From: a virus
Strand: one strand, 5' to 3'
DNA length: 62,845 nt
IMG/VR virus record: IMGVR_UViG_3300032236_000207
Span: 1 to 62,845 of that record
Below, piece after piece: positions 48,078 to 61,104 of the stretch (position 1 is its first letter; each line of letters opens with the position of its first letter). A program made the position numbers and the translations under genes. Under the pieces are notes generated by a model. It was given only the letters and a program-made list of their open reading frames with translations. It was not told the DNA's origin and ran no database searches.

Positions 48078-48126
48078 CTAACAAATGTTATGCCATCCCC
48101 CTACTTTATTTTTGTTCAAAGAACGC

Positions 48127-48155
48127 TTGCATTTTGTGGTGCGATTAGATATAAT
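48127..48155 (+). promoter_or_regulatory. sigma-70 promoter of the first rightward gene
   Basis: TTGCAT (48127-48132), 17-nt spacer, TATAAT (48150-48155). It lies 80 nt before the 48235 gene; the leader contains the palindrome CCTAAC-ATAA-GTTAGG at 48187-48202. Confidence 0.8.
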
Positions 48156-48186
48156 GAGAACATGCCAAGCAACAATGCTTTGCATA

Positions 48187-48202
48187 CCTAACATAAGTTA
48201 GG
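48187..48202 (+). promoter_or_regulatory. leader palindrome CCTAACATAAGTTAGG
   Basis: Perfect 6-bp arms around ATAA, about 25-40 nt downstream of the expected transcription start of the 48127 promoter and 32 nt before the start codon. It is a member of the dispersed palindrome family and could be an operator or an RNA hairpin. Confidence 0.7.
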
Positions 48203-48234
48203 TTTCATGTTAGTTCTTTTTACAGAGGTTTATT

Positions 48235-48756
48235 ATGGATACAGTTCACGTCGTTAGTCCCGCTTTCCCTATGACTGCAGTGGCGGGTGCAGTTGCTAAC
48301 TTGACCGAGTCTCGCACTCAACTGGTTAAGGGTATCGGCAAAATCGGTGCTTTGATATCGGGATATTCCCTAGCGTTAGACCAAGCGTTTGACTTGGTAG
48401 ATAACCAAGGGCAAACCACTACCAAGTGGTTCGACTTGAAGGGTGCACTAAAGAAGGGCATCAAGGGTGAGCGTGCTAACTTTGTGGCAGATATGACACA
48501 AGCGGGTTATGGTAAGTCTACCATTGACGTCTACTGGCAACGAGTCAAGGAAGCCTCGGGTTATGTGACTGCGGGTAACCGAGTCAAGGCTGGCGCTACT
48601 GATGTTGACGCGAAGACACTCGCTGAATTGAAGACTATGGTAAACCGTATCTTCAAAGCCGAAGAGGAAGGCGTGACATGTGACGCTAGCGATATCAAGC
48701 ACTTGCTGATTGACGCTTACACAGCACTGGGTGGCAACGATAGCGACTTAGGCTAA
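48235..48756 (+). CDS. first early protein, candidate DNA-binding regulator
   Basis: 173 residues with AGAGG upstream of the ATG. The N-terminal region is hydrophobic and helical (MTAVAGAVANLTESRTQLVK, then IGKIGALISGYSLALDQAFD). Around 90-106 is QAGYGKSTIDVYWQRVKEAS, which could form a helix-turn-helix. I do not recognise the family. It is the first gene of the rightward region, has its own near-consensus promoter, and its leader carries the palindrome found throughout this arm, so an autoregulator is a reasonable guess but unproven. Confidence 0.6.
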   Translation: MDTVHVVSPAFPMTAVAGAVANLTESRTQLVKGIGKIGALISGYSLALDQAFDLVDNQGQTTTKWFDLKGALKKGIKGERANFVADMTQAGYGKSTIDVYWQRVKEASGYVTAGNRVKAGATDVDAKTLAELKTMVNRIFKAEEEGVTCDASDIKHLLIDAYTALGGNDSDLG

Positions 48757-48815
48757 TCAACGGACGGGGGGAAACCCCCGTTCTAACAAATGTTAGTTTT
48801 TAATCGGAGAATGTT

Positions 48816-49019
48816 ATGAAACCCTCTTACAAGCATGATTGTGAAAAGTGCAAATTTGTCGGCAAAATCTTTCGTGCTATGAATTTGGAAGGCACAAAGA
48901 AAAAAGCGACTGATGTTTATCAGTCTTGCGAAGTAGGTGGAAGTCGTTATATCCTCCGTTGTTCTAGTCAAGGCTCGGACTACATCACTACCAATAATTT
49001 GGAGATGTATATCTGCTAA
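48816..49019 (+). CDS. small Cys-rich protein, 67 aa
   Basis: A GGAG site 6-7 nt upstream supports the ATG. The product has CEKC at residues 9-12 and further cysteines near 38, 49 and at the very C terminus, so it may bind zinc. It ends with a terminator 20 nt downstream, making it the last gene of the short 48.2-49.0 kb unit. Function is unknown. Confidence 0.65.
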   Translation: MKPSYKHDCEKCKFVGKIFRAMNLEGTKKKATDVYQSCEVGGSRYILRCSSQGSDYITTNNLEMYIC

Positions 49020-49038
49020 CCCCTACTGACTTATCCAC

Positions 49039-49062
49039 AGCCCGCCTTGAGCGGGCTTTTTT
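49039..49062 (+). terminator. rho-independent terminator
   Basis: AGCCCGC (49039-49045), loop CTTGA, GCGGGCT (49051-49057) and a run of six T (49057-49062). It ends the transcript from the 48127 promoter. Confidence 0.95.
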
Positions 49063-49076
49063 GCGTCTGATGACAC

Positions 49077-49120
49077 CTAACAAATGTTAGCGTACCACTA
49101 AGTTATTTTTGTTCAAAGAA
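49077..49120. repeat. second copy of a composite palindrome-plus-box element
   Basis: CTAACAAATGTTAG (49077-49090) followed after 12 nt by TTATTTTTGTTCAAAGAA (49103-49120). The same pair occurs at 48078-48090 and 48106-48123 immediately before the 48127 promoter. Here no good promoter follows, so it may be a decayed copy or a protein-binding site. Confidence 0.7.
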
Positions 49121-49133
49121 ATTTAGCCCGAAT

Positions 49134-49251
49134 TTTTAGAATGCCAGTTCTCTGGGCGGCGTTAGGGTTGAAGTTTGAGATTGTCATCGCAGGGCATAGT
49201 TTGGCGACAATCTTTTAGGATGCCAGTTCTCTGGGCGGGTTTAGGCTCGAA
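49134..49251 (+). repeat. 39-bp direct repeats flanking a hairpin; possible small RNA
   Basis: Copies at 49134-49172 and 49213-49251 are identical at 34 of 39 positions. Both contain TGCCAGTTCTCTGGGCGG with a small CCAG-TTCT-CTGG hairpin. Between them GATTGTC (49179-49185) and GACAATC (49206-49212) form a 7-bp stem. There is no open frame, so a non-coding RNA or a protein-binding array is more likely. Confidence 0.55.
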
Positions 49252-49614
49252 CTAACAAATGTTATGCTTTGGGCAGGTAATGTTACGCAATGTTACGTGA
49301 CCCCTCCCCGCAAACCCGCATGAAACCTAGATTGTTATATGTTATATTGTTACACGACATATATAGCAGTCCACCAAAATGGATTTGGTCATCAAGGTCA
49401 GCAAGTGCAATTCATACCACTCAAACTCATTTTGGTGGGATATATATATATTCTCATAACATTATAACTTTATAACAATTAGTCATTTTTTGGCGTGGTT
49501 AAGCCATTTCCTTTGTTACACTTTATTTCCAAAACCCGTAACAATACCCTATTTTCATAACATCCCACTAACAAAGAAACATAACAATCCTCACTCATGC
49601 TCCGTCCTAAAAAT
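49252..49614. other. A+T-rich non-coding stretch
   Basis: No convincing gene. It includes a long imperfect inverted repeat: ATATATA (49359-49365) and CCACCAAAATG (49371-49381) pair with CATTTTGGTGG (49428-49438) and TATATATATA (49441-49450), enclosing about 46 nt. Short GTTA/TAAC words are frequent. The role is unknown; an origin or a structured RNA is possible. Confidence 0.5.
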
Positions 49615-49643
49615 TTGACAAATCTGTAAAATTGTGGTATAAT
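49615..49643 (+). promoter_or_regulatory. consensus sigma-70 promoter, cassette copy 1
   Basis: TTGACA (49615-49620), 17-nt spacer and TATAAT (49638-49643), both boxes perfect. The leader has CCTAACAACTGTTAGG at 49675-49690, 30 nt after the -10. It is nearly identical to the promoter at 49745. Confidence 0.95.
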
Positions 49644-49719
49644 AAGGTATGGAAATCAAAATAAAACCACAAAACCTAACAACTGTTAGGAAATGTAACA
49701 ACCCGAAGGAGAGCACATC

Positions 49720-49740
49720 ATGCGCCCAAGCACGCCCTAA
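49720..49740 (+). CDS. possible six-residue leader peptide
   Basis: ATG at 49720 preceded by AAGGAG (49706-49711, 8-nt spacer) opens MRPSTP and stops at TAA 49738-49740, just before the second promoter. It lies on the transcript from the 49615 promoter. A strong ribosome binding site before so short a frame suggests a leader peptide, or a remnant of a gene start displaced by the promoter duplication. Confidence 0.35.
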   Translation: MRPSTP

Positions 49741-49744
49741 ATAT

Positions 49745-49773
49745 TTGACAAATCTGTAAAATTGTGGTATAAT
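49745..49773 (+). promoter_or_regulatory. consensus sigma-70 promoter, cassette copy 2
   Basis: TTGACA (49745-49750), 17-nt spacer, TATAAT (49768-49773). The transcript start region can form a hairpin ATGGGT...GCCCAT (49779-49784 with 49801-49806), followed by the palindrome at 49814-49827. It should drive the gene series from 49860 on. Confidence 0.95.
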
Positions 49774-49859
49774 ATAACATGGGTTCGGGAGTTTTTCTCA
49801 GCCCATTCCAAATCTAACAAATGTTAGTTTTTCAACCCTTCAACCATACAAAGGTTTTT

Positions 49860-50057
49860 ATGTCCTCAGATTCACGCATCTACTTCATGCTTATGACAAT
49901 AATCGCAACTGCCTTTATTGTGTTCGGTTTTACTGGCGATGGTTACATCCACAACATTGCGCTAATCCTTGGTGGTCTCTACTTTGGTCACTTGATTACC
50001 GAAGCCCTCAACTATGACGAGTCAGACAAACTCGCAGACAGCCACTTGGAGGTATAA
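49860..50057 (+). CDS. small membrane protein, 65 aa
   Basis: An ATG at 49821 lies inside a palindrome copy, but AAAGG 5 nt before 49860 favours this start (MSSDSRIYFMLMTIIATAFI). Two hydrophobic segments, at about 8-25 and 32-48 (NIALILGGLYFGHLI), predict two membrane spans, followed by an acidic tail. First gene after the 49745 promoter. Its function is unknown. Confidence 0.65.
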   Translation: MSSDSRIYFMLMTIIATAFIVFGFTGDGYIHNIALILGGLYFGHLITEALNYDESDKLADSHLEV

Positions 50058-50060
50058 CAA

Positions 50061-50291
50061 ATGTTAGATAACGACTGGAAAGAATGTATCGACTGCGGTG
50101 ATGATGTTCACATCTCCCGTTGGTCTCTTGGCTACCGAGTGTGCCTCTTCTGCGGTGAAGACCGAGCCGTCGCAGAGCGTAGTTCATGGTGCATTGTGCA
50201 AGAGTACGGCAAGGGTAACTATCAGTATATTACCCCTACTAGCGCAACCACAACACTCAAGCAGACTAACCAAAAAGAACTGAGAGGGTAA
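50061..50291 (+). CDS. zinc-ribbon-like protein, 76 aa
   Basis: Contains CIDC (residues 9-12) and CLFC (28-31), a four-Cys ribbon, followed by YGKGNYQYITPTSATTTLKQ, a tail recurrent in similar small phage proteins. GGAGG at 50048-50052 and the ATG embedded in the palindrome set the start. It may bind nucleic acid or a host transcription component, but this is not shown. Confidence 0.75.
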   Translation: MLDNDWKECIDCGDDVHISRWSLGYRVCLFCGEDRAVAERSSWCIVQEYGKGNYQYITPTSATTTLKQTNQKELRG

Positions 50292-50295
50292 GGGT

Positions 50296-50457
50296 ATGAA
50301 AAAATTTAATGTGACTGTGGTGTTTTCTTACATCGACACCATCGAGGTGGAGGCTGAGAACAGAGAGGATGCCAAGGCTATGGCGTTTGACTTGTTCGAC
50401 GAGGAGCGCATGGTGCGCTGTGATGGTGAAGTGTTAGAAGTTGAAGAGGAGGCATAA
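50296..50457 (+). CDS. small acidic protein, 53 aa
   Basis: ATG at 50296, preceded by AAGGG in the end of the upstream gene. The product (MKKFNVTVVFSYIDTIEVEA, then ENREDAKAMAFDLFDEERMV) has the beta-beta-alpha pattern of small proteins with a (V/I)EVEAENxEDAKxxA motif, very common in phages. Its stop lies within the next palindrome copy. Confidence 0.75.
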   Translation: MKKFNVTVVFSYIDTIEVEAENREDAKAMAFDLFDEERMVRCDGEVLEVEEEA

Positions 50458-50460
50458 CAA

Positions 50461-50643
50461 ATGTTAGAAATTACATACACCGATATGTTCTTGTTCGCAT
50501 GGGCAAGCGTGATGACTGCCCTGTATTTCAAGGCACGACACGAGGAGCGCATGGTCAAAGTTGTGTTCATGCACCTTATAGAGAACCCCGAAGCCCGAGA
50601 GCAGATGATTGCCCAGTATGAAAAGACAAGGAGCGAAGCATGA
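50461..50643 (+). CDS. small membrane-associated protein, 60 aa
   Basis: Starts MLEITYTDMFLFAWASVMTA, with one hydrophobic segment at about 8-24 and a charged helical C terminus. The ATG is inside a palindrome copy with GAGGAGG upstream. Overlaps the next gene by 4 nt. Its function is unknown. Confidence 0.65.
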   Translation: MLEITYTDMFLFAWASVMTALYFKARHEERMVKVVFMHLIENPEAREQMIAQYEKTRSEA

Positions 50644-50831
50644 ACGACAAAGATATCCAAGACGCAACCCGCCTAGTTCAGTATGCGGAGTTAGACATAG
50701 CGAAATACCTACAAAGCCCTGCCGACTTCATGGTTGTGGAGTGGCTTGAGGGTGTGCAACAAGCCCTGACCGACGCATTACAAATGTTAGGTTCGAACCC
50801 AATCCCTTTGTTGGAGAGCGATGATGAGTAA
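50640..50831 (+). CDS. hypothetical protein, 63 aa
   Basis: Helical and acidic (DIQDATRLVQYAELDIAKYL, then VVEWLEGVQQALTDALQMLG). The ATGA overlap with the upstream gene supports the start. A degenerate palindrome copy lies within codons for LQMLG, where it encodes protein, so these sites are tolerated inside genes. Function is unknown. Confidence 0.6.
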   Translation: MNDKDIQDATRLVQYAELDIAKYLQSPADFMVVEWLEGVQQALTDALQMLGSNPIPLLESDDE

Positions 50832-51009
50832 AGACCGAAAGATAGCAGAGTTGGAGGCCACGATTAGGTCACTGCTCAAAGCCATCGACGGGTACAAGCG
50901 AGACCTCACATACGAAACAAACTGGAGGCTCATGTCCGCATGTATAAGTGCGAAGGAAGTTTTAAACAAACGAGAGGTAACAAATGTTAGAAATCGTAGT
51001 ACGAATTAA
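50824..51009 (+). CDS. hypothetical coiled-coil protein, 61 aa
   Basis: The ATG codons at 50821 and 50824 are adjacent; GGAG at 50813-50816 is better spaced for 50824. The product (MSKDRKIAELEATIRSLLKA) is basic with a coiled-coil N terminus. It overlaps both neighbours. Function is unknown. Confidence 0.55.
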   Translation: MSKDRKIAELEATIRSLLKAIDGYKRDLTYETNWRLMSACISAKEVLNKREVTNVRNRSTN

Positions 51010-51175
51010 GAATGTATACGGAGTGGACAAGGTTTACCCAGTCTCTCCCAATGCTCACCTATTTGCCGACATTGCAGGCACAACCACGCTCAGACCATCC
51101 GACCTCAAGGCAATCCAAGAACTAGGGTATCGGGTAATCGTAGAGCAACCCGTATGGCAATCGGTGGAGGTATAA
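50984..51175 (+). CDS. hypothetical protein, 63 aa
   Basis: Start ATG lies in a palindrome copy after GAGAGG. The product (MLEIVVRIKNVYGVDKVYPV, then ALxELGYRVIVEQP-like end) resembles small phage proteins with the pattern IxVxNVYGxxxxYPxxxxA and a C-terminal ALG(Y/F)xVxV segment. The sequence suggests an alpha/beta fold; function unknown. Confidence 0.7.
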   Translation: MLEIVVRIKNVYGVDKVYPVSPNAHLFADIAGTTTLRPSDLKAIQELGYRVIVEQPVWQSVEV

Positions 51176-51177
51176 CA

Positions 51178-51669
51178 ATGTTAGATGACACAACCAACCT
51201 CACACCTGAGCAGAAACTAAAACTGCTCATTGCCAACCGACCTTGGGAAACCGAGCCCAACAGCGCAAAGTGGGAAGACAAACTCACGGGATACAAGTGC
51301 CGAATTATGCGACACGGCGACCTCGGTCACCTCTGTGGGTATGTGGGAATACCTAAGACGCACACGCTATACGGCAAGCACTACTCAGATGACGAGGTGG
51401 CAGACATTCGAATTCACGGTGGGCTGACGTTCTCAGAGGCAGATGAAGATGACAAAGACACATGGTGGTTCGGGTTCGACTGCTCACACATGGGAGACCT
51501 GAGCCCAAAACTACTCATGGTGCTCGTGGAGAAGGACAGATACAGGTTCGACCGAACCGAGCAATACCGCACATGGGACTATGTGGAGAACGAAGTCCGT
51601 GAGTTGGTGCGCCAACTGCGAGACGAGGATTCCCTAGCAAATCAAATACCAAACTTTAGGAGACCCTAA
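51178..51669 (+). CDS. conserved phage protein with GYVGIP...WWFGFDCSH motif
   Basis: 163 residues; GGAGG and the palindrome-embedded ATG at 51178 set the start. After a helical N terminus come GHLCGYVGIPKTHTLYGKHY, HGGLTFSEADEDDKDTWWFG and FDCSHMGDLSP, a signature I know from many tailed phages. The conserved His, Cys and Trp residues hint at a metal site, but no activity is established. Confidence 0.75.
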   Translation: MLDDTTNLTPEQKLKLLIANRPWETEPNSAKWEDKLTGYKCRIMRHGDLGHLCGYVGIPKTHTLYGKHYSDDEVADIRIHGGLTFSEADEDDKDTWWFGFDCSHMGDLSPKLLMVLVEKDRYRFDRTEQYRTWDYVENEVRELVRQLRDEDSLANQIPNFRRP

Positions 51670-51672
51670 CAA

Positions 51673-51915
51673 ATGTTAGATAAAGAAGCACAGCAAGCCT
51701 TGGTTGCATTGATGCAGACCAAGCAGAACTTGGAAGACCAAGTATTGAAGTCAATGCGTAGCCCTGACCTGACAACCGAGCAACTCATAAAACTACGCAA
51801 GAAGTATCTAGGGTTCTTAGAGAAGTTGCAAGAGGTTGAGGATGAACTCCAAGCACACGAGCGGGGCACACCCGAGGAATGGATAGCCATGTGGAAGGGG
51901 CAGAAAGATGAGTGA
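51673..51915 (+). CDS. coiled-coil protein, 80 aa
   Basis: Strongly helical and charged (MLDKEAQQALVALMQTKQNL, then LRKKYLGFLEKLQEVEDELQ). Its ATG sits in a perfect palindrome copy (51666-51679). Overlaps the next gene by 8 nt. Its function is unknown. Confidence 0.65.
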   Translation: MLDKEAQQALVALMQTKQNLEDQVLKSMRSPDLTTEQLIKLRKKYLGFLEKLQEVEDELQAHERGTPEEWIAMWKGQKDE

Positions 51916-52123: not shown

Positions 52124-52271
52124 GTATTACGTCACAGGATGGAGTGCCCGATTCGGGAATTGGCACGCCGAGGTATTCGAGTGCAAGAGTATGGAGTTTG
52201 CGAAGAAGCGATTCTTGGCGAGTTACCCCACGCTCAAGCAGATAAAAGTCTACCCGCTACGGGACAACTAA
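52116..52271 (+). CDS. hypothetical protein, 51 aa
   Basis: ATG at 52116 with AAGGAG 52103-52108 upstream. The product begins MTRYYVTGWSARFGNWHAEV and continues FECKSMEFAKKRFLASYPTL, a compact basic alpha/beta pattern. It overlaps the previous gene by 8 nt and ends just before a palindrome copy. Its function is unknown. Confidence 0.65.
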   Translation: MTRYYVTGWSARFGNWHAEVFECKSMEFAKKRFLASYPTLKQIKVYPLRDN

Positions 52272-52299
52272 AACCTAACAAATGTTAGAAAGGTAAATT

Positions 52300-53319
52300 A
52301 TGGGATACGCAACAGTAATGAATGTGCCACGGGTAACAACCTACACCGAGGCAAAGAACCTACACGACAGCATCAAGCCGATTCGTGGGCGAGACCCCGA
52401 GGTGCGACCCTTGGGTAACCGACGCGATGCCGACTCGTATTGGGTACGCATGGATGGGGACGACGTAGTGTTCATGCTCTACAAATCCCCCGTGATTACA
52501 TACAAGCCTGACGGGGCGGTGGTACTCACACCTGATACATATAGCACAGTATCTACACACCAATTCTTTCACAGGGTTCTTGGGGTGGGGGCAAATGCGT
52601 CTAGACAGCACTCCGTAATCACGCTCGGGGACAAACGCTACACGATTCGTGGCAAGGACAAACTCACGCTCAGACAAGTGGATGGGAACTGGTCTTGCGT
52701 CGAGGGGGCGAAGGCGCAGTTCGCGTGGCATTTGGACAGGCGAGAAGCAACAAATGTTAGGTCTCGCTACAAAGAATTTGTCACCTACTTCAAAGGCATG
52801 GTGGCTTTACGCACCGAGGACTTCACGCACCACTACGGTAATACGCACTACAAGGGAATTGCCGTGTCTCTGAATGAGTTACAAAATGCGTTTGGTGTGG
52901 AGACTATCGAAAACGAGAACCCATTCTTGCACTCACGAAATGACCCTGATTCAATCATTGGCAACATGCGGTGGATACAAGACTTGCCACAACGCCATTA
53001 CAACTATGGCACGCAGAGAGCGGATGAGTATGGGGCGGGCATAGTGAATTTTCTAGACCTGATTAGGAGCGACCAACCTGAGGACACCAAGACCACGAAC
53101 TTCTACAAGGGTGCGTTGGCGGTGCTGATGAGCGGTGACCGCCTATATCTACGAGGACAAGACGATAACACCTACATCGTTAAGGCTACGCCGATAGTGA
53201 AAGCCTTGGACACCGTGTTACTCAAAGCCCATGCGAGTCAGGTATTGGTGCGCAAAGAGTTACCGATTGGTTCGGTGTCCAAAGGGGCATACGACAGGTG
53301 GTTACCTGAGAACACCTAA
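52300..53319 (+). CDS. conserved hypothetical phage protein, 339 aa
   Basis: The N-terminal region contains RGRDPEVRPLGNRRDADSYW, VRMDGDDVVFMLYKSPVITY and KPDGAVVLTPDTYSTVSTHQ, a block seen in other phages with MoxR/VWA genes. The rest is alpha/beta with no catalytic motif I can name. Its stop TAA falls inside a 20-bp palindrome. As it precedes the AAA+ gene, it may belong to the same system, but it is separated from it by a promoter. Confidence 0.65.
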   Translation: MGYATVMNVPRVTTYTEAKNLHDSIKPIRGRDPEVRPLGNRRDADSYWVRMDGDDVVFMLYKSPVITYKPDGAVVLTPDTYSTVSTHQFFHRVLGVGANASRQHSVITLGDKRYTIRGKDKLTLRQVDGNWSCVEGAKAQFAWHLDRREATNVRSRYKEFVTYFKGMVALRTEDFTHHYGNTHYKGIAVSLNELQNAFGVETIENENPFLHSRNDPDSIIGNMRWIQDLPQRHYNYGTQRADEYGAGIVNFLDLIRSDQPEDTKTTNFYKGALAVLMSGDRLYLRGQDDNTYIVKATPIVKALDTVLLKAHASQVLVRKELPIGSVSKGAYDRWLPENT

Positions 53320-53332
53320 CAAATGTTAGGTG
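53313..53332 (+). promoter_or_regulatory. extended palindrome CACCTAAC-AAAT-GTTAGGTG
   Basis: Longest copy of the family: 8-bp arms around AAAT. It lies at the end of the 52300 gene and 24 nt upstream of the third promoter cassette, so it could be an upstream operator or a weak terminator hairpin (no T-run follows). Confidence 0.75.
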
Positions 53333-53356: not shown

Positions 53357-53385
53357 TTGACAAATACCTTATTTTGTGGTATAAT
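53357..53385 (+). promoter_or_regulatory. consensus sigma-70 promoter, cassette copy 3
   Basis: TTGACA (53357-53362), 17-nt spacer ending TTTTGTGG, TATAAT (53380-53385). The upstream CCTAAATA and spacer end match the 49615 and 49745 copies. The leader carries CCTAACAACTGTTAGG at 53433-53448. It drives the AAA+/VWA gene group. Confidence 0.95.
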
Positions 53386-53467
53386 TAAATGGTAGGCAAA
53401 AAAGTATTTTGTGTTAGTTTTTTCAACCAAATCCTAACAACTGTTAGGTATATCAGAGGAGTTAGAT

Positions 53468-54532
53468 ATGTCAGAAGTTAATTTCGGTAAGACCATTACC
53501 TTGAAGCAAGCATCCAATTTGATTCGCACGAACCCCACAACTCGGTTCTTATTGCGAGGTGAACCCGGAATTGGAAAGTCTTCCCTGTTGGAGAGTATTG
53601 CTAACGCATTGGGTTATGACCACGCATACATTGACGTGCCTAACCTAGACCTTGGCGATATTGCGATGCCCGTGATTGACCACGAGACCAAGACAACTAG
53701 GTATTACCCTAATGCTCGGTTCAAATTGCATGAGAAGAAACCCATCGTCATCATGCTAGACGAGTATACGAAGGGCGCAGACCCAGTTAAGAACATGCTC
53801 CATCCCATGCTCGAGAAGGCGAACCCACGACTCGGTGACATCTCTTTGCATGAGCAGAACATTGTGTTCATGACGGGTAATCTATCGACAGACGGGGTGG
53901 GTGACTCACTCAAGGCGCACTCTATGAATCGTGTGGTATCTGTAACTATCCAAAAGCCTGATGCAGAACAGTGGATTGAATGGGCTATCGGCAAGAGTAT
54001 CGAGCCTGAGGTGATTGCTTGGGTGAATCGTTTCCCACAAGTCTTGGCAAGTTACACGGACGGTGGACAGGCGGATAACCCGTATATCTTTAATCCTAAG
54101 AAGCCTATGACTGCGTTCGTATCTCCACGCTCACTCGAGACGGCCTCTAACATTGTTAGGTCTCGCAAAGAGAATGATGCCGACTCAGTAATCGCGGCTT
54201 TGACTGGTGCTATTGGCGAGTCAGGTGCAAGAGATATGCAAGCGTATATCGAATTCTCAGACCAACTGCCAACATGGGAAGCGACCATCAAAGACCCTAA
54301 GAATACCAAGATACCTACAAGTGCAGGTGCTTGTGCGATTGTGGTGTTCGGTGCGATTGCCCGTGTGGAGAAGGACACCATTGATGCGTTCATGGAATAT
54401 CTCGAGCGATTCGATGCCGAGTGGCAAGCCGTGTTCGCTATCAACATAGCGAAGTCACAAGCCAAGCAGAGCATTGCGTTTAGTGCGAAAGCCTTTACTG
54501 CATGGGTTGCTAAGAACCAAGACTTACTCTAA
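53468..54532 (+). CDS. MoxR-type AAA+ ATPase
   Basis: 354 residues. Walker A GEPGIGKSS (31-39), Walker B IVIMLDEY (93-100) and sensor 1 FMTGN (134-138) are clear; MNRVV near 160 carries a likely arginine finger. The small helical domain follows, with PKKPMTAFVSPRSLE typical of MoxR proteins. MoxR ATPases work with VWA proteins to remodel or load metal into target complexes. The VWA partner is encoded two genes downstream. AGAGGAG lies upstream of the ATG. Confidence 0.85.
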   Translation: MSEVNFGKTITLKQASNLIRTNPTTRFLLRGEPGIGKSSLLESIANALGYDHAYIDVPNLDLGDIAMPVIDHETKTTRYYPNARFKLHEKKPIVIMLDEYTKGADPVKNMLHPMLEKANPRLGDISLHEQNIVFMTGNLSTDGVGDSLKAHSMNRVVSVTIQKPDAEQWIEWAIGKSIEPEVIAWVNRFPQVLASYTDGGQADNPYIFNPKKPMTAFVSPRSLETASNIVRSRKENDADSVIAALTGAIGESGARDMQAYIEFSDQLPTWEATIKDPKNTKIPTSAGACAIVVFGAIARVEKDTIDAFMEYLERFDAEWQAVFAINIAKSQAKQSIAFSAKAFTAWVAKNQDLL

Positions 54533-54542
54533 GAATTCTTAG

Positions 54543-54758
54543 ATGCTAACTACATCACAGAGTAATGGCACTCGTGCCCACCTTGGGCACAGGTATTGGG
54601 TGCAATGGGTAACCGCCACCAACCGAGACAAGGAGATGGTGGTGCTTGGCTACTGCGTTCGTGATATGGACAAGTTCGACAAGAACATTGTGTTCGAGCA
54701 CGAGAGCAAGATTGTGTGCGACAAGATTGCAGGTTTACTTAACGAAGGAGAGAGGTAA
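54543..54758 (+). CDS. hypothetical protein, 71 aa
   Basis: Lies between the AAA+ and VWA genes. The ATG follows the perfect palindrome CTAAGAATTCTTAG (54529-54542), with no clear Shine-Dalgarno. The product (GHRYWVQWVTATNRDKEMVV, then FDKNIVFEHESKIVCDKIAG) appears alpha/beta. A small adaptor of the AAA+/VWA pair is possible by position only. Confidence 0.6.
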   Translation: MLTTSQSNGTRAHLGHRYWVQWVTATNRDKEMVVLGYCVRDMDKFDKNIVFEHESKIVCDKIAGLLNEGER

Positions 54759-54761
54759 CAA

Positions 54762-55982
54762 ATGTTAGAAGAAAGACGTGTTCAGAAGTCGAAGATTAGT
54801 TTGATGCGTAACCCTAAGTTCGCATTGCTATCAGGTATCTTGATGGTTGGTCGTACTAAGGTAGTGGATAACTTACCTACTGCGTGCACCAATGGTAGAG
54901 ATGAATCGTATGGTCGCAAGTTCGTCAAAGAACTGCGTGACCAAGAGTTGAACTTTGTGGTGGCGCATGAGAACTATCACAAGATGTATCGACACTTGAC
55001 TACATGGCGCAAGTTGCACGAGATTGACCACAGGTTAGCGAACAGCGCATGTGACTATGTAATCAACATCCAGTTGAAAGACCTAGACCCTAACGAGACA
55101 CTCATAGCCATGCCCCGATACAAAGACGGCAAGGTGATGGGCTTAGTTGATGAGCGATTCCGTGGCATGAACGCCAAGGAGGTGTTCGACATACTAAGAG
55201 AGGAGAAAGAGGAAAGAGGTTCTGGCGGTGAGGGCGAGGGTGGTAGCGGTGCGGGTGATGGTGACCCTGAGTTCGATGACCACGACTGGGATGGTGCTCA
55301 GGAGATGACAGCCGAGGAGAAGAAAGACTTGGCACGAGAGATTGACCAAGCGATTCGTCAGGGCATCATGGCACAGCAGAAGATTGCGGGTAGCGGAGCA
55401 GGTGGACTAGACCGTGAGTTGCAAGGACTACTTGAGCCCAAGGTTAACTGGCGTGAGGTATTGCGTGAGTTCGTTAAGTCAACATGCAGTTCTAAAGATG
55501 CATCGTCATGGCGCAGAGTTAATCGTAGGTTCTTATCCACAGGTGTTTACATGCCGAGCCTTATCGGTGAGAAGGTAGGTCACTTGGTTATTGCTATCGA
55601 CACATCGGGTTCGATTGGCGGTGATGAGTTGGCAGACTTCTTATCTGAGGTTAAGGGTATCGCAGAAGAGGTAAACCCTGAGTGCGTGGACTTACTGTAT
55701 TGGGATAGCGAGGTAGCGGGGCACGAGACTTACTCGGGTTCTACTGCGTCAGATATTCCTAACTCTACCAAGCCCAAGGGTGGCGGTGGCACAAGCCCGT
55801 CTTGTGTATCAGCGTATCTGAAAGAGAAGAACATCCAGCCCGAGTGCGTGATTGTTCTAACCGACGGGTATGTTGGTGGTGATTGGGGTAGCGAGTGGAC
55901 TGCGCCCGTGATGTGGTGCATCGTGGGTGGGTATGACGGCGATGCCGACAACGGCAAGACTATTCACATCGACAGCAACTAA
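54762..55982 (+). CDS. VWA-domain protein with HExxH metallopeptidase-like N terminus
   Basis: 406 residues. The N-terminal part matches DUF2201-type proteins: TNGRDESYG and VVAHENYHKMYRH, with HENYH at 69-73 as a zinc-binding motif. A low-complexity Gly/Glu/Asp linker spans about 152-180. The C-terminal VWA-like domain has IAIDTSGS (MIDAS DxSxS, 280-284), GGTSPS and VLTDGYVGG. With the MoxR gene it forms the usual ATPase/VWA pair. The start ATG is in a palindrome copy, with GGAGAGAGG upstream. Confidence 0.85.
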   Translation: MLEERRVQKSKISLMRNPKFALLSGILMVGRTKVVDNLPTACTNGRDESYGRKFVKELRDQELNFVVAHENYHKMYRHLTTWRKLHEIDHRLANSACDYVINIQLKDLDPNETLIAMPRYKDGKVMGLVDERFRGMNAKEVFDILREEKEERGSGGEGEGGSGAGDGDPEFDDHDWDGAQEMTAEEKKDLAREIDQAIRQGIMAQQKIAGSGAGGLDRELQGLLEPKVNWREVLREFVKSTCSSKDASSWRRVNRRFLSTGVYMPSLIGEKVGHLVIAIDTSGSIGGDELADFLSEVKGIAEEVNPECVDLLYWDSEVAGHETYSGSTASDIPNSTKPKGGGGTSPSCVSAYLKEKNIQPECVIVLTDGYVGGDWGSEWTAPVMWCIVGGYDGDADNGKTIHIDSN

Positions 55983-56000
55983 CAAATGTTAGGAGTGAGT

Positions 56001-56219: not shown

Positions 56220-56221
56220 TG

Positions 56222-56347: not shown

Positions 56348-57198
56348 GTATTAGTTCATCAGCGTTGTTAGTGGAGTTGAATATCAGCGTATGGCCTGCG
56401 TCTAAGTTAGACAGAGAAATAACGGACAAGGTCAATACAGATGCGTCAGCAGTCAGAGGTGCGAGTCAGACCAAGAAGAATCTATTTGCGGGGACTAGCC
56501 TACGCAAAGACATATCAGACTTCGCCGCGCGTGTTCGTCTGTATCACAACAAGCACACATTACCTTGGGCAGACAAGGGTGAGCGCATGTTGCCGACCAA
56601 GTTATTCATGGAATACAAGCAGACCATGAACGGGTTCGAGCAGACATTCAACATGATGTGCAACAACTTCTTTGTGGAGTATCCGCGTCTTGTCGCAGAA
56701 GCACCTACTAACCTAGGCACTATGTATAAGGCAGAGGACTATCCCGACCTAACAGATGTTAGGTTGAAGTTCGGTTTCAAGCGAACAGTAAAGCCCGTGC
56801 CTGAGGCGGGCGACTTCCGACTGGACATACCTGCGTATGACTTGGATGAGATGCGAGCCGAGTTCGAGAAGCAACACGAGACTAAGTTAGCCGAGGCTAT
56901 GCGTGAGCCGTGGGAGCGTCTGCATAAGATGTTAGTAGGAATGTCGGAGAAGTTGACTGATGTTGAGGGTGATGATTCCAAGAAGCGTTACCACGACACA
57001 CTTATCTCTAACCCCATAGAGTTGTGTGGACTGCTAACCAAACTGAATGTGACCAACGACCCCAAGTTGGAGGAAGCACGACGTCAGTTGGAGTTGACCA
57101 TGCTTGGCGCAGACATTGAGAGTATTAAAGAAGATGCACAGTCTCGCAGTGCACTCAAGTCCAAGGTAGATGCTATCTTGGGTAAGTTCGATTGGTAA
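56344..57198 (+). CDS. DUF3150-like protein linked to MoxR/VWA
   Basis: 284 residues. The N terminus LLVELNISVWPASKLDREIT resembles the LNISxWxGxKKL start of DUF3150 proteins, which are encoded beside MoxR and VWA genes. The middle (FAARVRLYHNKHTLPWADKG, then RMLPTKLFMEYKQTMNGFEQ) and the end are helical. A palindrome copy (56749-56762) lies within the coding region. GGGAGGAAGT precedes the ATG. The family assignment is a moderate-confidence recognition; it is likely a partner or substrate adaptor. Confidence 0.6.
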   Translation: MSISSSALLVELNISVWPASKLDREITDKVNTDASAVRGASQTKKNLFAGTSLRKDISDFAARVRLYHNKHTLPWADKGERMLPTKLFMEYKQTMNGFEQTFNMMCNNFFVEYPRLVAEAPTNLGTMYKAEDYPDLTDVRLKFGFKRTVKPVPEAGDFRLDIPAYDLDEMRAEFEKQHETKLAEAMREPWERLHKMLVGMSEKLTDVEGDDSKKRYHDTLISNPIELCGLLTKLNVTNDPKLEEARRQLELTMLGADIESIKEDAQSRSALKSKVDAILGKFDW

Positions 57199-57224
57199 CT
57201 AAGAAATCTTAGAAAGGGAATGAT

Positions 57225-58091
57225 ATGAGTGAATCACAGGCAGTAAGTATGAATTTGTTTGCGTTGAGCAATGTTGAGTTGCACCCCGATGTATCCAAGA
57301 AATTGGGTAATGAGACGATAGGCGACCCGCCTAACGATATGTGCAGATTGGTAATGCACTTGGCTATGGCAAACCCATTGTGGCGGTTTGTCGTTACCGA
57401 TACTATGGGAGACCATAGACCCGTAGGGTTCGGTGTGATTGATAGTGGCGAGGTGATTGGCAAGATTGGTAGGCAGTATTACCGAGGGGACTACAAACTC
57501 TCGCTAACCAACGACCGCATTAGCAATGCTAGAGAACGCACATCCTCATACCGCACGTCAGATGTGGACAAGGCTATCCTCATGGCGAAGAAGATGTTCT
57601 TTCGTCTCAAGCCCAACGAGCGTATCGAGAAGGCGTATGAGCAAGCCCACAAGGTGATGACTAACCAACTCTACGATAAGCAGAGGGAGCATCGCTATGC
57701 CGAGCGGGAGACCGAGAGTCTTGCGGTTAAGTTCATCATGGGAACTGGCTTTCCTTTGTTCTTGGGGTATGTAAACGGCCTGCCTGAACATGAGAAGAAG
57801 CCCATACTAGCGAAGATGGAGCAGGCCAAGAAGTTCAAGCAAGACATGATGACCATTGAAGCAATCAAGGATAGGTTCGGTGGTGAACACACAGCCCTAA
57901 TCATCAAAGATGAGGGTAAATACATGGTGAAGATTGGACAAGATGTTCAGATTTACGATGATAATACGCTCCCCGAATCCATGCGGGGTAAGTTGGGTAT
58001 GTTGAAGTTGGTTGAAGCCGAGCACTTCATATCTAGCGTGGGGTGTCGTATCAATGATGAGATATTCGTAGTATTAACAGAGGAGACCTAA
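57225..58091 (+). CDS. conserved hypothetical protein, 288 aa
   Basis: AAAGGGA precedes the ATG. The leader has the palindrome variant CTAAGAAATCTTAG at 57199-57212. Segments FVVTDTMGDHRPVGFGVIDS and NDRISNARERTSSYRTSDVD suggest a beta-rich N-terminal domain followed by helices (ILMAKKMFFRLKPNERIEKA). I do not recognise a family. Encoded with the MoxR/VWA group, so it may be a target or accessory. Confidence 0.6.
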   Translation: MSESQAVSMNLFALSNVELHPDVSKKLGNETIGDPPNDMCRLVMHLAMANPLWRFVVTDTMGDHRPVGFGVIDSGEVIGKIGRQYYRGDYKLSLTNDRISNARERTSSYRTSDVDKAILMAKKMFFRLKPNERIEKAYEQAHKVMTNQLYDKQREHRYAERETESLAVKFIMGTGFPLFLGYVNGLPEHEKKPILAKMEQAKKFKQDMMTIEAIKDRFGGEHTALIIKDEGKYMVKIGQDVQIYDDNTLPESMRGKLGMLKLVEAEHFISSVGCRINDEIFVVLTEET

Positions 58092-58094
58092 CAA

Positions 58095-58295
58095 ATGTTA
58101 GAAGTAAAACTAGACAACCATCCGACCACAAGAATGTTTCCACGCACATTAGAAGAAGCGTATCCCAAAGATTACGTCAACAATTTCTTTGAGGGCCCGT
58201 TTTACAGTGCTCCACATATCAGCGAATACTCAGTCTTGCTTGCATTGATAGCAGTGTTCAGTATGTTGGGCTATGCAATGTGGAGGTATTTCTGA
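58095..58295 (+). CDS. small protein with C-terminal membrane anchor, 66 aa
   Basis: Starts MLEVKLDNHPTTRMFPRTLE with its ATG in a perfect palindrome copy (58088-58101). The C-terminal VLLALIAVFSMLGYAMWRYF is a membrane segment. Part of three consecutive membrane-peptide genes. The stop TGA overlaps the next ATG. Confidence 0.65.
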   Translation: MLEVKLDNHPTTRMFPRTLEEAYPKDYVNNFFEGPFYSAPHISEYSVLLALIAVFSMLGYAMWRYF

Positions 58296-58399
58296 TGTTA
58301 GAAACAATCGCATGGATAGTATTTCTAATGGGGCTAGGCGCAGTCGTAGTGGTTGCCGTAGGACTAGCAATAGTTTATATAAGTAGGGAGGACATATGA
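58295..58399 (+). CDS. single-span membrane peptide, 34 aa
   Basis: ATG at 58295 overlaps the previous TGA (TGATG), with GGAGG 8 nt upstream; its stop overlaps the next start. The product MLETIAWIVFLMGLGAVVVV continues AVGLAIVYISREDI and is essentially one transmembrane helix. It keeps the ATGTTAGA start seen in the palindrome-linked genes but lacks the left arm. Its function is unknown. Confidence 0.65.
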   Translation: MLETIAWIVFLMGLGAVVVVAVGLAIVYISREDI

Positions 58400-58755
58400 A
58401 TGACTTTTTTTGGGGCGCAGGTATAAGCGCAGTAATTTGGACATTGATTAGTTTTGTTTGGGGGTTCGTGGAGGAACATAAGAAAGACAAGGCTAACAAA
58501 GTTAGGGAGAAGTTGGCGTACCACGGCACTGCACTGGTATCCCCACAAATATCCCCCAGTTTTGGCAAGGTAGAGCCACAAGTGCGGATTGGGATGATGA
58601 ACGCAATGAACGGCAGACTGCTAGAGGTTGCATCTACTACGCTAAACAGACACGGGGATAGAGACTATGTAGTCGAGCACTACATCATTGATGAGACCAA
58701 GCCATTGTCGGAGGAGATAGCGGTGGTGATGCTTATGAAGGGGATGAGTAAATGA
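58396..58755 (+). CDS. membrane-anchored protein, 119 aa
   Basis: The N-terminal segment FFWGAGISAVIWTLISFVWG spans the membrane, followed by a charged linker and a soluble alpha/beta domain (LLEVASTTLNRHGDRDYVVE, then EIAVVMLMKGMSK). A palindrome variant lies at 58493-58505 in the coding region. GGGAGG precedes the ATG. Function is unknown. Confidence 0.65.
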   Translation: MNDFFWGAGISAVIWTLISFVWGFVEEHKKDKANKVREKLAYHGTALVSPQISPSFGKVEPQVRIGMMNAMNGRLLEVASTTLNRHGDRDYVVEHYIIDETKPLSEEIAVVMLMKGMSK

Positions 58756-58931
58756 AAGAGCACGAAATGATTTCTGCGATTACTCTGCGTGACTTCTTTG
58801 CGTCTCAGGCTATGCAGGGTGCTTTAGCAGGTATCGCTACTAGAGCGGAGGTTATTCGCTACTCAGAGTTAGCGGGACTAGCGTACGAAGTAGCGGACGC
58901 AATGATGGAAGCGAGAGATGAGGAAGCGTAG
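58752..58931 (+). CDS. hypothetical protein, 59 aa
   Basis: The ATG at 58752 overlaps the previous stop (ATGA). The product has ITLRDFFASQAMQGALAGIA and YSELAGLAYEVADAMMEARD, the common phage pattern TLRDYFAAxAMQGxLA...AYxxADAMLxAR. Overlaps the next gene by 14 nt. It is often annotated as a small conserved phage protein; role unknown. Confidence 0.8.
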   Translation: MKEHEMISAITLRDFFASQAMQGALAGIATRAEVIRYSELAGLAYEVADAMMEARDEEA

Positions 58932-59391
58932 CAAATACAGACCCAAGGGAGTTCTGCCCGACCCGATGACTTGGTTGTTGGCGGGTATGAAACCTTTCAA
59001 AGAAGTGCCTTTTAGCGTAGACCTACGTATCAAGAACCACGGTGCTATGGATGCGCTACGCAGAGGCATTGCTACCAAGGATGACATGGATGTTCTGATT
59101 GGTGCGTTCAACATGACCGAGGCATGTATCCGACTGCGACCTGAGTTGGGTGCGGACTGGGCAGATGAAATCAAGGCGGGGCAAGATGCGCTCTATGCAG
59201 TTTCTAAGCGAGGTGCAAATAGTATGCGGTTCATTCTCAAGGCGAGTGAACTTGTGGCTATGAACCTAGTCATGGAACTACATGATGTGCAACTAGACCA
59301 AACAACAGTAAGCGACTTGGAGAAGGCTATGGATATTGTGAAAGAAGAACATAGATTGAAGAAGATGCGACCAGTCAAGGAGAAGGTATGA
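58918..59391 (+). CDS. conserved phage protein, 157 aa
   Basis: The basic start MRKRSKYRPKGVLPDPMTWL, then GALRRG-type motif AMDALRRGIATKDDMDVLIG and the helical remainder (ALYAVSKRGANSMRFILKAS), match a family recurrent in phages of proteobacteria near the TQDEIIEMA-type genes. All-helical; function not established. It overlaps both neighbours. Confidence 0.7.
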   Translation: MRKRSKYRPKGVLPDPMTWLLAGMKPFKEVPFSVDLRIKNHGAMDALRRGIATKDDMDVLIGAFNMTEACIRLRPELGADWADEIKAGQDALYAVSKRGANSMRFILKASELVAMNLVMELHDVQLDQTTVSDLEKAMDIVKEEHRLKKMRPVKEKV

Positions 59392-59651
59392 CACAAGATG
59401 AAATCATTGAGATGGCTAGAGAGTCTGGGTTAGAAACACAAGATGGGTTTTCTGAATCTGTTTTTTACTTTGCCAAACTGGTAGCAGACAAAAGAGTTGA
59501 AGGCATGGTAGTAATGACCCCTGACGAATTCAAAAGCGTATGGGATAAAGCGCAAGCAGAAGAGCGTGAGGCGTGTGCGCTTATTGGCGATGGCTATCAC
59601 GATGAAGAAGCAAACTGTGGTGATTTAATCAGAGCAAGGGGACAAGCATGA
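59388..59651 (+). CDS. TQDEIIEMA-family protein, copy 1
   Basis: 87 residues: start MTQDEIIEMARESGLE, a middle FAKLVADKRVEGMV and an end REACALIGDG...LIRARGQA. The family is very common in phages, with helices that suggest a small coiled-coil scaffold. It overlaps the second copy by 4 nt. Function is unknown. Confidence 0.75.
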   Translation: MTQDEIIEMARESGLETQDGFSESVFYFAKLVADKRVEGMVVMTPDEFKSVWDKAQAEEREACALIGDGYHDEEANCGDLIRARGQA

Positions 59652-59923
59652 CACAAGATGAAATCATTGAGATGGCTAGACAGGCTGGTTTTGATGTCAA
59701 AGAATGGGGTGATGAAACATTGGTTCGTACCGTACACAGCAAGGGTTACTTTGTTGTCATCAATCAAAAACTTGAAGCCTTTGCCAAACTGGTAGCAGAG
59801 AAAGAGCGTGAGGAATGTGCCAAGATTATTTATGACTCTTGGGAATCAACAACAGCGGGTGAAGGCATACCCGAAGATTGGCTTTTGACTTTGGCAGAAC
59901 TAATCAAAGCAAGGGGAAACTAA
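59648..59923 (+). CDS. TQDEIIEMA-family protein, copy 2
   Basis: 91 residues. The first ten residues are identical to copy 1 and the DNA of the first 33 nt is identical too, so one is a recent partial duplicate. It keeps the canonical LEAFAKLVAEKEREECAKII and LAELIKARGN. The stop TAA overlaps the next ATG (TAATG). Confidence 0.8.
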   Translation: MTQDEIIEMARQAGFDVKEWGDETLVRTVHSKGYFVVINQKLEAFAKLVAEKEREECAKIIYDSWESTTAGEGIPEDWLLTLAELIKARGN

Positions 59924-60204
59924 TGCAGTCAGTTCATTCAACAGGCTACATGGTGCGTAGCATATACAAAGGAACATATGAAAAAACAGGAAGAGATGAT
60001 GGAACAGGATACGTCTTGTATCGAACAAGAACCCTTGCACAACAACACATCGACAAGTATTGCGAAGGCAAAGCGTTCGTCGTCAAAGTCAGGGTTGCGA
60101 TTACGCCGACTGAGTCAAGCCGAAATGAACGCGCATTGGCCATTCACAAGGCTAGACCCAAAACTATTTCCGAAAAACTTAAAAACAACTTCTTTCCCTA
60201 CTGA
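59923..60204 (+). CDS. hypothetical protein, 93 aa (frame may be shifted near its end)
   Basis: ATG at 59923 follows AAGGGG and overlaps the previous stop. The first 60 residues (MVRSIYKGTYEKTGRDDGTG, then YVLYRTRTLAQQHIDKYCEG) look like a genuine alpha/beta protein. The last 30 (ERALAIHKARPKTISEKLKN) may be out of frame, because the overlapping frame there encodes a more protein-like segment. Confidence 0.55.
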   Translation: MQSVHSTGYMVRSIYKGTYEKTGRDDGTGYVLYRTRTLAQQHIDKYCEGKAFVVKVRVAITPTESSRNERALAIHKARPKTISEKLKNNFFPY

Positions 60205-60226
60205 AGAAGAGGAAGCACTACTATGA
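59978..60226 (+). CDS. overlapping frame, alternative or second half of the preceding gene
   Basis: 82 residues from an ATG with AAAGGA upstream, fully overlapping the 59923 gene in another frame. The first half (Ser/Lys/Gln-rich) looks like a shadow. The last 35 residues (SQAEMNAHWPFTRLDPKLFP, then LKTTSFPTEEEEALL) look conserved, and its stop overlaps the next ATG. It may be a true overlapping gene, or the C terminus reached by a frameshift. Confidence 0.35.
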   Translation: MKKQEEMMEQDTSCIEQEPLHNNTSTSIAKAKRSSSKSGLRLRRLSQAEMNAHWPFTRLDPKLFPKNLKTTSFPTEEEEALL

Positions 60227-60423
60227 CAACAGGAATTGAAGAACTTAAACCAATAACAAAACGCAAGGGGCGAGGCCTTGGTAAGAAACCTGCGCTTTTT
60301 TGCACGAGTTTGCGTCTACCAAAGGAGGTGATGGATTACTTCAACACTAACTTTCCGTATACAAAGCAAGCCAAGATGAGAGAAATTCTTACTGAATACA
60401 TTAACCAACAAACAAGGAGTTAA
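60223..60423 (+). CDS. ribbon-helix-helix-like small protein, 66 aa
   Basis: After a basic N terminus comes SLRLPKEVMDYFNTNFPYTK followed by QAKMREILTEYI, the strand-helix-helix pattern of ribbon-helix-helix DNA-binding proteins (here TSLRLPKEV as the strand). It could be a transcriptional regulator. Starts by ATGA overlap; ends one base before the DUF3310 gene. Confidence 0.7.
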   Translation: MTTGIEELKPITKRKGRGLGKKPALFCTSLRLPKEVMDYFNTNFPYTKQAKMREILTEYINQQTRS

Positions 60424-60424
60424 C

Positions 60425-60949
60425 ATGGTTACTAAAAAGAAACGCACAAGCAGAACTAAGACCGCACAGATTCGTGCTTACATAGCAGAGAATCCCGAAG
60501 CGACACCGAAGACCATTTCGGGGCTATACGGCATCCCGCTCAAGTCCGTGTATCAGATTACATATCAGATACGCAAAGAGAAGAAGCCCGTCATCGTCAC
60601 TGCAACACAGGCAGCCATCGCTAATAGGCTAGGGGTATCAACGCAGGAGTATGTCAAGAGAGTTTACGAATTGACGAGAGGGCGTGACCGACGCCACCCC
60701 GTTACAGGTAAGCGTCTCATGCAAGGCGCAGATATTGTGGCAACACATCACACCGACATGGTCAACCATCCTCCGCACTACAAGCAAGGGGGCATCGAGA
60801 CTATCGACTTCATCGAGGCGAAAGAGTTGGACTACAACCTTGGCAATGTTGTGAAATACATAACACGAGCCGACCACAAGGGCAACAAGTTGGAAGACTT
60901 GAAGAAGGCACAGTGGTATCTCAACCGAGCCATTGAAAAGTTAAACTGA
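60425..60949 (+). CDS. DUF3310 protein with N-terminal helix-turn-helix
   Basis: 174 residues. The C-terminal domain NHPPHYKQGGIETIDFIEAK, then LGNVVKYITRADHKGNKLED and LKKAQWYLNRAI, is DUF3310, a phage domain sometimes annotated as nucleotide kinase. The N-terminal 85 residues have TPKTISGLYGIPLKSVYQIT, a possible winged or homeodomain-like helix-turn-helix. AAGGAG precedes the ATG. Its transcript continues into a structured intergenic region. Confidence 0.85.
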   Translation: MVTKKKRTSRTKTAQIRAYIAENPEATPKTISGLYGIPLKSVYQITYQIRKEKKPVIVTATQAAIANRLGVSTQEYVKRVYELTRGRDRRHPVTGKRLMQGADIVATHHTDMVNHPPHYKQGGIETIDFIEAKELDYNLGNVVKYITRADHKGNKLEDLKKAQWYLNRAIEKLN

Positions 60950-61104
60950 TACTAGGGGGTAACATAATTGGAGGATGACCTAGCCGATAGATGTGACGGT
61001 GTCTTTCTCAAGCAGAGTCCCCCTTAGTTGATTTGCTCTGCTTGAACCTTAAGCGTGACGGGGGGCACGCAATCTATCAGCCCCCCAACCTAACATTTGT
61101 TAGG
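60946..61104 (+). ncRNA. structured RNA candidate with three-way junction
   Basis: No gene in 60950-61207. Plus-strand pairing by eye: P1 GATAGAT (60986-60992) with ATCTATC (61072-61078); P2 TCAAGCAGAG (61008-61017) with CTCTGCTTGA (61036-61045), a perfect 10 bp; P3 GCGTG (61053-61057) with CACGC (61066-61070). The P2 loop has five C (61019-61023) and the P3 loop six G (61060-61065), which could kiss. Outer GGGGG (60955-60959) and CCCCCC (61081-61086) offer an alternative fold. A family palindrome (61090-61103) and a terminator follow. Confidence 0.55.

Follow-up and report, generated by a model that had tools for sequence, protein, structure and literature searches.

A palindrome array across the early arm of an uncultured phage, with a centre length that follows a putative regulator gene

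The DNA analysed here, referred to as the window, is a 62,845-nucleotide stretch of an uncultured phage (IMG/VR record IMGVR_UViG_3300032236_000207), in which two dozen or so copies of a short palindrome lie across the early genes. The first gene of the rightward arm (48235..48756, plus strand) diverges from terS and encodes a putative regulator of 173 aa, assigned to family F4. Its promoter, read by eye as TTGCAT-N17-TATAAT (48127..48155, plus strand), lies between site 1 (CTAACAAATGTTAT, 48078..48091), which precedes the -35 element by about 35 bp and is off the rightward transcript, and site 2 (CTAACATAAGTTAG, 48188..48201) in the leader of the gene. Three more plus-strand promoters match the TTGACA-17-TATAAT consensus at 12/12 positions, and each has a site in its leader: 49615..49643 with CTAACAACTGTTAG at 49676..49689; 49745..49773 with CTAACAAATGTTAG at 49814..49827, also covering a possible start codon at 49821; and the promoter of an AAA ATPase gene (53357..53385) with CTAACAACTGTTAG at 53434..53447. 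For all four of these σ70-like promoters, the site lies 26–42 bases past the estimated transcription start.

The remaining sites are found between, at the edges of, and inside genes. CTAACAAATGTTAG recurs between genes 48235 and 48816 (48783..48796), soon past a terminator at 49039-49057 (49077..49090), and between genes ahead of 52300 (52275..52288), while CTAACAAATGTTAT recurs in an intergenic position at 49252..49265. Stop/start junctions are occupied at 50054..50067, 50454..50467, 51666..51679 and 58088..58101 (gene starts 50061, 50461, 51673 and 58095), and gene starts are covered at 50977..50990 (start 50984), 54755..54768 (start 54762) and 51172..51184 (start 51178), the last by ATAACAATGTTAG, which has the minority spacing of centre 3. 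Two sites mark gene ends, at 53316..53329 (gene 52300-53319) and 55979..55992 (gene 54762-55982). Inside genes lie CTAACATTGTTAG (centre 3; 54147..54159, codons 226-232 of the AAA gene), CTAACAGATGTTAG (56749..56762, codons 135-140 of gene 56344) and CTAACAAAGTTAG (centre 3; 58493..58505, gene 58396). Two variants with CTAAG/CTTAG arms, already described in the original prediction, are real: CTAAGAATTCTTAG at 54529..54542, where relatives carry TAACN3-4GTTA, and CTAAGAAATCTTAG at 57199..57212, which has the start 57202 on its stop-codon side and is a normal site in relatives L008 and L010-L012. The last site (CTAACATTTGTTAG, 61090..61103), whose place is kept in relatives, directly precedes an intrinsic terminator (61114..61136, plus strand) that closes the domain.

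The palindromes of the window are real. Exact CTAACN4GTTAG occurs 13 times against 0.04 expected, and exact CTAACN3GTTAG twice against 0.05. Between 48.0 and 61.2 kb there are 23 copies of the core TAACN3-4GTTA, against a Markov expectation of 0.36 (maximum 3 in 300); one of them, at 60421, is probably a chance match. The structural block at 7.0-47.7 kb holds four cores against 1.5 expected and no exact copy, and cores are absent from 1-7 kb and beyond 61.2 kb. This strong excess over composition bears out the original prediction, which had counted more than 20 copies at 48.0-61.1 kb and none at 7-47.7 kb, and had placed them in promoter leaders, at gene starts and inside genes; gene ends can be added. 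Its description of the control as phage-wide is wrong. The array covers a single transcription domain, some 13 kb long, which opens in the divergent region between terS and 48235 and stops at the terminator at 61114-61131; the replication genes (915-6785) and all sequence past 61.2 kb lie outside it. The array starts adjoining terS, and its outermost sites flank the domain.

The comparison set comprised more than 150 related phage contigs, with arrays in about 165 contigs and up to 23 palindrome copies in each; full-length records carry one compact array each. The closest isolate by TerL identity, phage DSL-LC04 (58%), has a different gene layout. Loss of the sites in close relatives, which the original prediction had named as counting against it, was not seen: site positions are orthologous and conserved across phages. 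The AAA ATPase leader site (53434) has an ortholog in nearly all relatives, and its spacing there is that of the lineage concerned. Of the 18 phages shown, 17 have a core site ahead of the promoter of the regulator (in L036 as TGACATTTGTTA), and in relatives a promoter similar to 48127-48155 lies downstream of site 1. Among 1294 sites, 64% are intergenic or at gene starts or ends, as against 16% of random positions, and 21% overlap start codons, so that placement is not confined to starts.

The length of the palindrome centre, N, is essentially single within a contig, at 2, 3, 4 or 5, with some N3 sites retained in several class-4 phages, including the window. The regulator occupies the same locus in all phages compared, and N follows this first-gene protein (48235-48756) and not the rest of the genome. 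Scans returned 56 N4 and 8 N3 contigs for family F4, and 69 N3, 2 N4 and 1 N2 for families F3/F5. With close relatives left out, the nearest neighbour of the regulator predicted N correctly in 48 of 50 cases, that of the AAA ATPase in 33 of 78 and that of TerS in 11 of 42; the 11 genes other than the regulator ranged from 8/57 to 48/75. The regulator tree has two changes of N (with 3 classes), and over 97 distinct regulators N changes 6 times versus 33.9 when shuffled. The backbone tree shows five changes of regulator family and six of N, although only four independent family switches are supported (sign test p=0.125). One pair makes the pattern concrete: the window and L006 have AAA proteins that are 94% identical, unlike regulators, and N4 versus N3. 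In L037, the first gene is unrelated and the array is absent. Where the regulator type changes, nearly all palindromes of that phage change centre length too, and the comparison shows one trans-acting specificity per phage, linked to the 48235 gene.

Sites inside genes follow the same rule. The centre-3 site at 54147 is kept in 32 of 34 class-3 phages but in only 14 of 41 class-4 phages (p=5e-8), with near-identical amino acids; it is a site in class-3 phages and probably a relic in the window. Conversely, the 56749 site is present in 32 of 40 class-4 phages and in none of 31 class-3 phages (p=5e-13); both p-values ignore relatedness. Comparison shows selection on in-gene sites, which are kept mainly where they match the N of the phage.

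The putative regulator belongs to a previously undescribed protein family. It is distantly homologous to the class-3 protein (97% in hhalign) and has a predicted pI of 5.7. No match was found in Pfam, PHROGs, PDB or BFVD, and no DNA-binding domain, HTH included, was recognisable in Pfam, PHROG, PDB-sequence or Foldseek searches; Foldseek of the predicted model against PDB and BFVD gave chance matches only. Neither the 48235 product nor the class-3 protein of L060 had a homologue in searches of isolated phages, and searches of bacterial genomes found no member of the 48235 family. The AAA ATPase was likewise searched in bacterial genomes without result and gave no host.

The reading that best accounts for these observations, to which we give a probability of roughly 70%, is that an autoregulated 48235 product binds the palindromes as a dimer and represses or roadblocks the early and accessory arm. 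The protein itself would bind symmetrically, as a dimer or dimeric unit in which each CTAACA half-site is occupied by one subunit. Its gene, which opens the rightward arm, is probably autoregulated, since sites flank its own promoter. As the protein accumulates, it would come to fill about twenty sites, located in leaders, over start codons, at gene ends and in gene interiors, repressing promoters and blocking elongating RNA polymerase across 48.0-61.1 kb. Repression, as opposed to activation, is suggested by the position of the sites. Points against this reading are the lack of a recognisable domain or fold match, the pI of 5.7, the N3 sites retained in several class-4 phages and the small number of supported family switches. 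The purpose would probably be early-gene shut-off, possibly directed against co-infecting relatives as well. The original prediction, that the 48235 product binds these sites to control early and accessory genes, thus gains strong comparative support. In this reading the system resembles mycobacteriophage stoperators, except that its sites are palindromes and that spacer length would be the main code for specificity. More tentatively, operator centre length (0 to 3 bp between CTAACA-type half-sites) may largely set specificity and define discrete regulatory types among aquatic, maybe strictly lytic phages; replacing the regulator would then force all 10-20 sites to be rewritten, between genes where they stand and within genes at other positions, and the system would serve immunity or early shut-off in the manner of stoperators, but without lysogeny.

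Other readings of the same data are conceivable. The protein and its sites could form a nucleoprotein or partition-like domain serving condensation, looping, or the control of replication or packaging, with transcription not the main target. A single compact array in full-length records, outermost sites that flank the domain, sites within genes, and a start beside terS would all suit such a structure. It is nevertheless rather unlikely, given the strong enrichment at gene boundaries, the fixed sites in the leaders of three strong promoters, and a small protein to which no known partition protein was matched in Pfam or PHROGs.

Slightly less probable again is a role at the RNA level, in which the palindromes would fold into hairpins within leaders and over start codons, and the 48235 product or some other factor would bind them to control translation. 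Most sites are transcribed, nearly all on rightward transcripts, and 5-bp hairpins can be drawn for them; the overlap with start codons would fit, and an RNA-binding phage protein would covary with its sites equally well. The 14-mers of the window fold to -2.4 kcal/mol, but N3 sites reach only -1.1 kcal/mol and the 12-nt N2 core alone forms no stem. At the two CTAAG/CTTAG variants both arms are changed together, where close relatives have an ordinary site, and pairing would account for this more easily. Template-switch correction within a palindrome could copy a change from arm to arm without selection for pairing. Compensatory changes, for which the original prediction proposed aligning relatives, did not emerge at the outer pair (551 Watson-Crick combinations versus 553 expected, n=765), and the hybrid half-sites of L144 break a pair. 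Dyad symmetry extends into bases too close together to pair in a hairpin, with A...T at the dyad in 632 of 668 N3 and 608 of 718 N4 sites. Sites deep within genes are also maintained. A DNA-binding dimer is favoured over RNA hairpins because the outer pair does not covary, dyad symmetry reaches beyond pairable bases, and site 1 precedes the promoter of the regulator; of the two explanations in the original prediction, dimer binding is strongly supported by comparison and pairing is not. Two promoter-spacer copies in L038 (7386 and 9913), considered as proof of DNA binding on untranscribed sequence, were dropped because the string TAACANNNTGTTATAAT also occurs in class-4 promoters (L016, L026) and may be mere promoter sequence.

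That another protein reads the sites is improbable. In favour of the 60425 product (HTH-DUF3310) are a weak N-terminal match to HTH_23 and the position of the last site behind its gene, and the ribbon-helix-helix-like 60223 product resembles a small DNA-binding protein by eye. Both were rejected, as they do not track spacing class (29/58 for 60223 and 8/57 for 60425), and the 60223 product is almost unchanged in L082 although the sites there differ; a factor from the host would not change in step with a phage gene. A functionless, spreading or mutation-driven repeat would be short, many-copy and variable in its centre, as here, but is practically untenable beside orthologous positions, class-dependent conservation within genes and confinement to one domain.

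An old question is how a regulon of many sites can switch specificity when each site has to change with it. One backbone tree here has about five switches of regulator family, four of them well supported; together with some 165 array contigs, these offer natural snapshots of the process, including sites left over from the other spacing and sites in coding sequence that arise at new places rather than shifting the frame. They also point to a likely DNA-binding role for a protein family without annotation in any library searched, and each regulator should favour its own centre length.

Known systems offer partial parallels. The stoperators of cluster A mycobacteriophages such as L5 and Bxb1 number 20-30 and are dispersed, a few at promoters but the majority elsewhere; each phage has a single motif type, which changes together with its small phage-encoded repressor, and the bound repressor blocks transcription elongation (PMC6550527, PMC9283540). 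The window agrees in copy number (23 cores in 13 kb) and in a motif that changes with the putative regulator. Stoperators belong, however, to temperate phages and are asymmetric, 13 bp long and all in one orientation, with a monomeric HTH protein as their binder (PMC6550527, PMC9283540), whereas the sites here are palindromic, with AAT and ATT loops equal; specificity would lie mainly in centre length, the protein has no recognisable HTH and is of an unrelated family by the tests run, and the contig, which may be incomplete, has no integrase match to PF00589 or PF00239. SPBRE of Bacillus phage SPbeta is likewise one element at many promoters under one phage master regulator, MrpR, but is a 15-bp motif at about ten promoters of a prophage, and MrpR has a tyrosine-recombinase fold (PMC10516654); the window has no PF00589 match and the regulator model no fold match. 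Finally, the SAS/ESAS of cluster K mycobacteriophages are 11-19 repeats confined to the non-structural half, many of them at gene starts, whose function and reader are not established (PMC3203893). SAS is an asymmetric 13-bp element placed 3-7 bp before starts (PMC3203893), while the core here is symmetric and is found in leaders, in gene interiors and at gene ends as well, and its covariation indicates a reader.

The CTAACN4GTTAG palindromes of the window, a viral record of 62,845 bases, form a real regulon that covers one domain. Thirteen exact copies occur against 0.04 expected, all within 48188–61103, and two more have a 3-base centre. The shorter core TAACN3-4GTTA is found 23 times at 48.0–61.2 kb (0.36 expected) and 4 times at 7.0–47.7 kb (1.5 expected), and a scan of the window found none at 1–7 kb or beyond 61.2 kb. 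The enrichment at ~48–61 kb claimed in the original prediction is thus borne out, and the phage-wide control proposed with it narrows to a single domain.

Conservation in related phages is also clear. The same palindrome is arrayed, usually in 5 to 20 copies, in nearly all of the 80 contigs (L005–L084) gathered by a search with the AAA ATPase (53468–54532). Centre length is essentially uniform within a contig, at three bases (N3, CTAACAwTGTTAG), four (N4, as in the window) or five (N5; contigs L038, L040 and L061). Several N4 phages have minority N3 sites; those of the window lie at 54147, 51172 and 58493, and the first, within the AAA gene, appears to be a remnant of an earlier N3 state. In full-length records with listed coordinates, exact copies form a single block of roughly 8–13 kb, the sole exception being one outlying copy in contig G012. 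The half-site is CTTATA in L082, and later scanning revealed mixed CTGAC and CTAAC half-sites in L144 and 12 perfect copies of CTAACGCGTTAG, with a 2-base centre (N2), in L235, which encodes a distant regulator relative.

The window's 48235–48756 product, from an undescribed family (F4), is well supported as the candidate regulator: it is predicted to bind the palindromes, with operator spacing defining the specificity types. Searches of Pfam, PHROGs, PDB sequences, PDB folds and BFVD gave no match to it, and its AlphaFold2 models are nearly all-helical at moderate confidence (pLDDT 77 and 79). In N4 phages its homologue is the first gene past the first site(s). N3 phages encode another protein at this position, the N5 phage L038 has a third type, and L037, which lacks an array, has an unrelated protein there. 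Remote homology links the two main regulator families (hhalign probability 97%, E 1e-10), which have conserved segments (YWQRVK in F4, NPSTVWARVR in F3) that, judging from their conservation, may contact DNA. Searching with F4 returned 56 N4 and 8 N3 contigs, and with the counterpart F3/F5 69 N3, 2 N4 and 1 N2, while 15 remaining contigs had too few sites for a class.

Because shared ancestry alone might explain this link, centre length was predicted from the phage with the most similar protein, excluding those with AAA identity of at least 90%. The regulator was right in 48/50 cases, as against 33/78 for AAA, 48/75 for VWA, 11/42 for TerS and 8/57 for HTH-DUF3310. Centre length changes 6 times on the backbone tree (regulator family, 5) and twice on the regulator tree; no more than four switches have support as independent events, so the paired test on the tree is not significant by itself. 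Among 97 distinct regulators, centre length changes 6 times versus 33.9 after shuffling. The window and L006 differ in both regulator and spacing, yet their AAA proteins are 94% identical; the window and L084 share both, yet AAA identity is 78%.

Sites within coding sequence show selection as well. At AAA codons 226–232 (ASNIVR), an N3 site is present in 32/34 N3, 14/41 N4, 0/3 N5 and 0/3 array-less phages, with amino acids almost unchanged across classes. Codons 135–140 of gene 56344 carry an N4 site in 32/40 N4 versus 0/31 N3 phages, and here the amino acids also differ somewhat; in N3 phages the site within this gene has another position, as expected if the reading frame forbids a 1-base change. 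Fisher tests, which ignore relatedness, give p values of 5e-8 (AAA) and 5e-13 (56344).

The original prediction had offered pairing or dimer binding as the reason for arm conservation, and the evidence favours, without proving, DNA binding. Action as RNA would suit the fact that most sites are transcribed and that both arms change together at two window sites, but the pair outside the core shows no covariation (551 Watson-Crick observed versus 553 expected at 765 sites). Moreover, A...T symmetry continues at the centre in 632/668 N3 and 608/718 N4 sites, where bases just 1 or 2 apart could not pair in a hairpin; hybrid sites of L144 break a pair; and 17/18 phages examined have a site upstream of their regulator promoter, the remaining one having a one-base variant there. 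These two are 54529 and 57199, both with CTAAG/CTTAG arms; sites of this form did not turn up in any other contig, and close relatives have normal sites at the same places.

The positions of the sites would be easier to reconcile with repression and roadblock than with activation. Among 1294 distinct sites at 169 partly overlapping loci, with crude gene calls, 33% are intergenic, 21% at gene starts, 10% at gene ends and 36% in genes (random positions: 9%, 6%, 1% and 84%). Perfect extended -10 promoters at 49615, 49745 and 53357 have sites 26, 34 and 42 bases past the estimated start, and terminators adjoin sites 49077 and 61090. Sites flanking the regulator promoter suggest autoregulation. The contig, which may be incomplete, gave no match to an integrase or resolvase domain, and this makes lysogenic immunity less likely than early shut-off.

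Other features of the window stand out. Between terS and the regulator, 47780–48060 is a long non-coding stretch with G-rich runs and a motif common to many relatives (e.g., CGGGTGTGCAACACA...GTGTA), possibly serving as a late promoter, an origin or a signal for packaging. At 48093–48126, which separates site 1 from the regulator promoter, TTTAATTATTGTTCACG or a similar sequence is shared by relatives and may be a further binding site or leftward promoter. The arm's best conserved pair (53468–55982) is the MoxR-like AAA ATPase and an adjoining VWA-like protein (PHROG label HNH endonuclease). At 60425–60949, an HTH-like N-terminus that varies strongly between phages is fused to a conserved DUF3310 domain, and 60223–60423 encodes a very conserved 66-aa protein of ribbon-helix-helix appearance with no tie to spacing class. 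The gene starts of 59388–59923 and 62111–62499 are duplicated (47 nt at 91% and 54 nt at 74% identity).

Among known systems, the closest functional analogy is with the stoperators of cluster A (PMC6550527, PMC9283540), while SPBRE/MrpR (PMC10516654) and SAS (PMC3203893) are more distant. The window's sites differ in symmetry from those of cluster A, and its protein family and probable lifestyle differ too, so by analogy the window's regulon would work like a stoperator system and not be a member of it.
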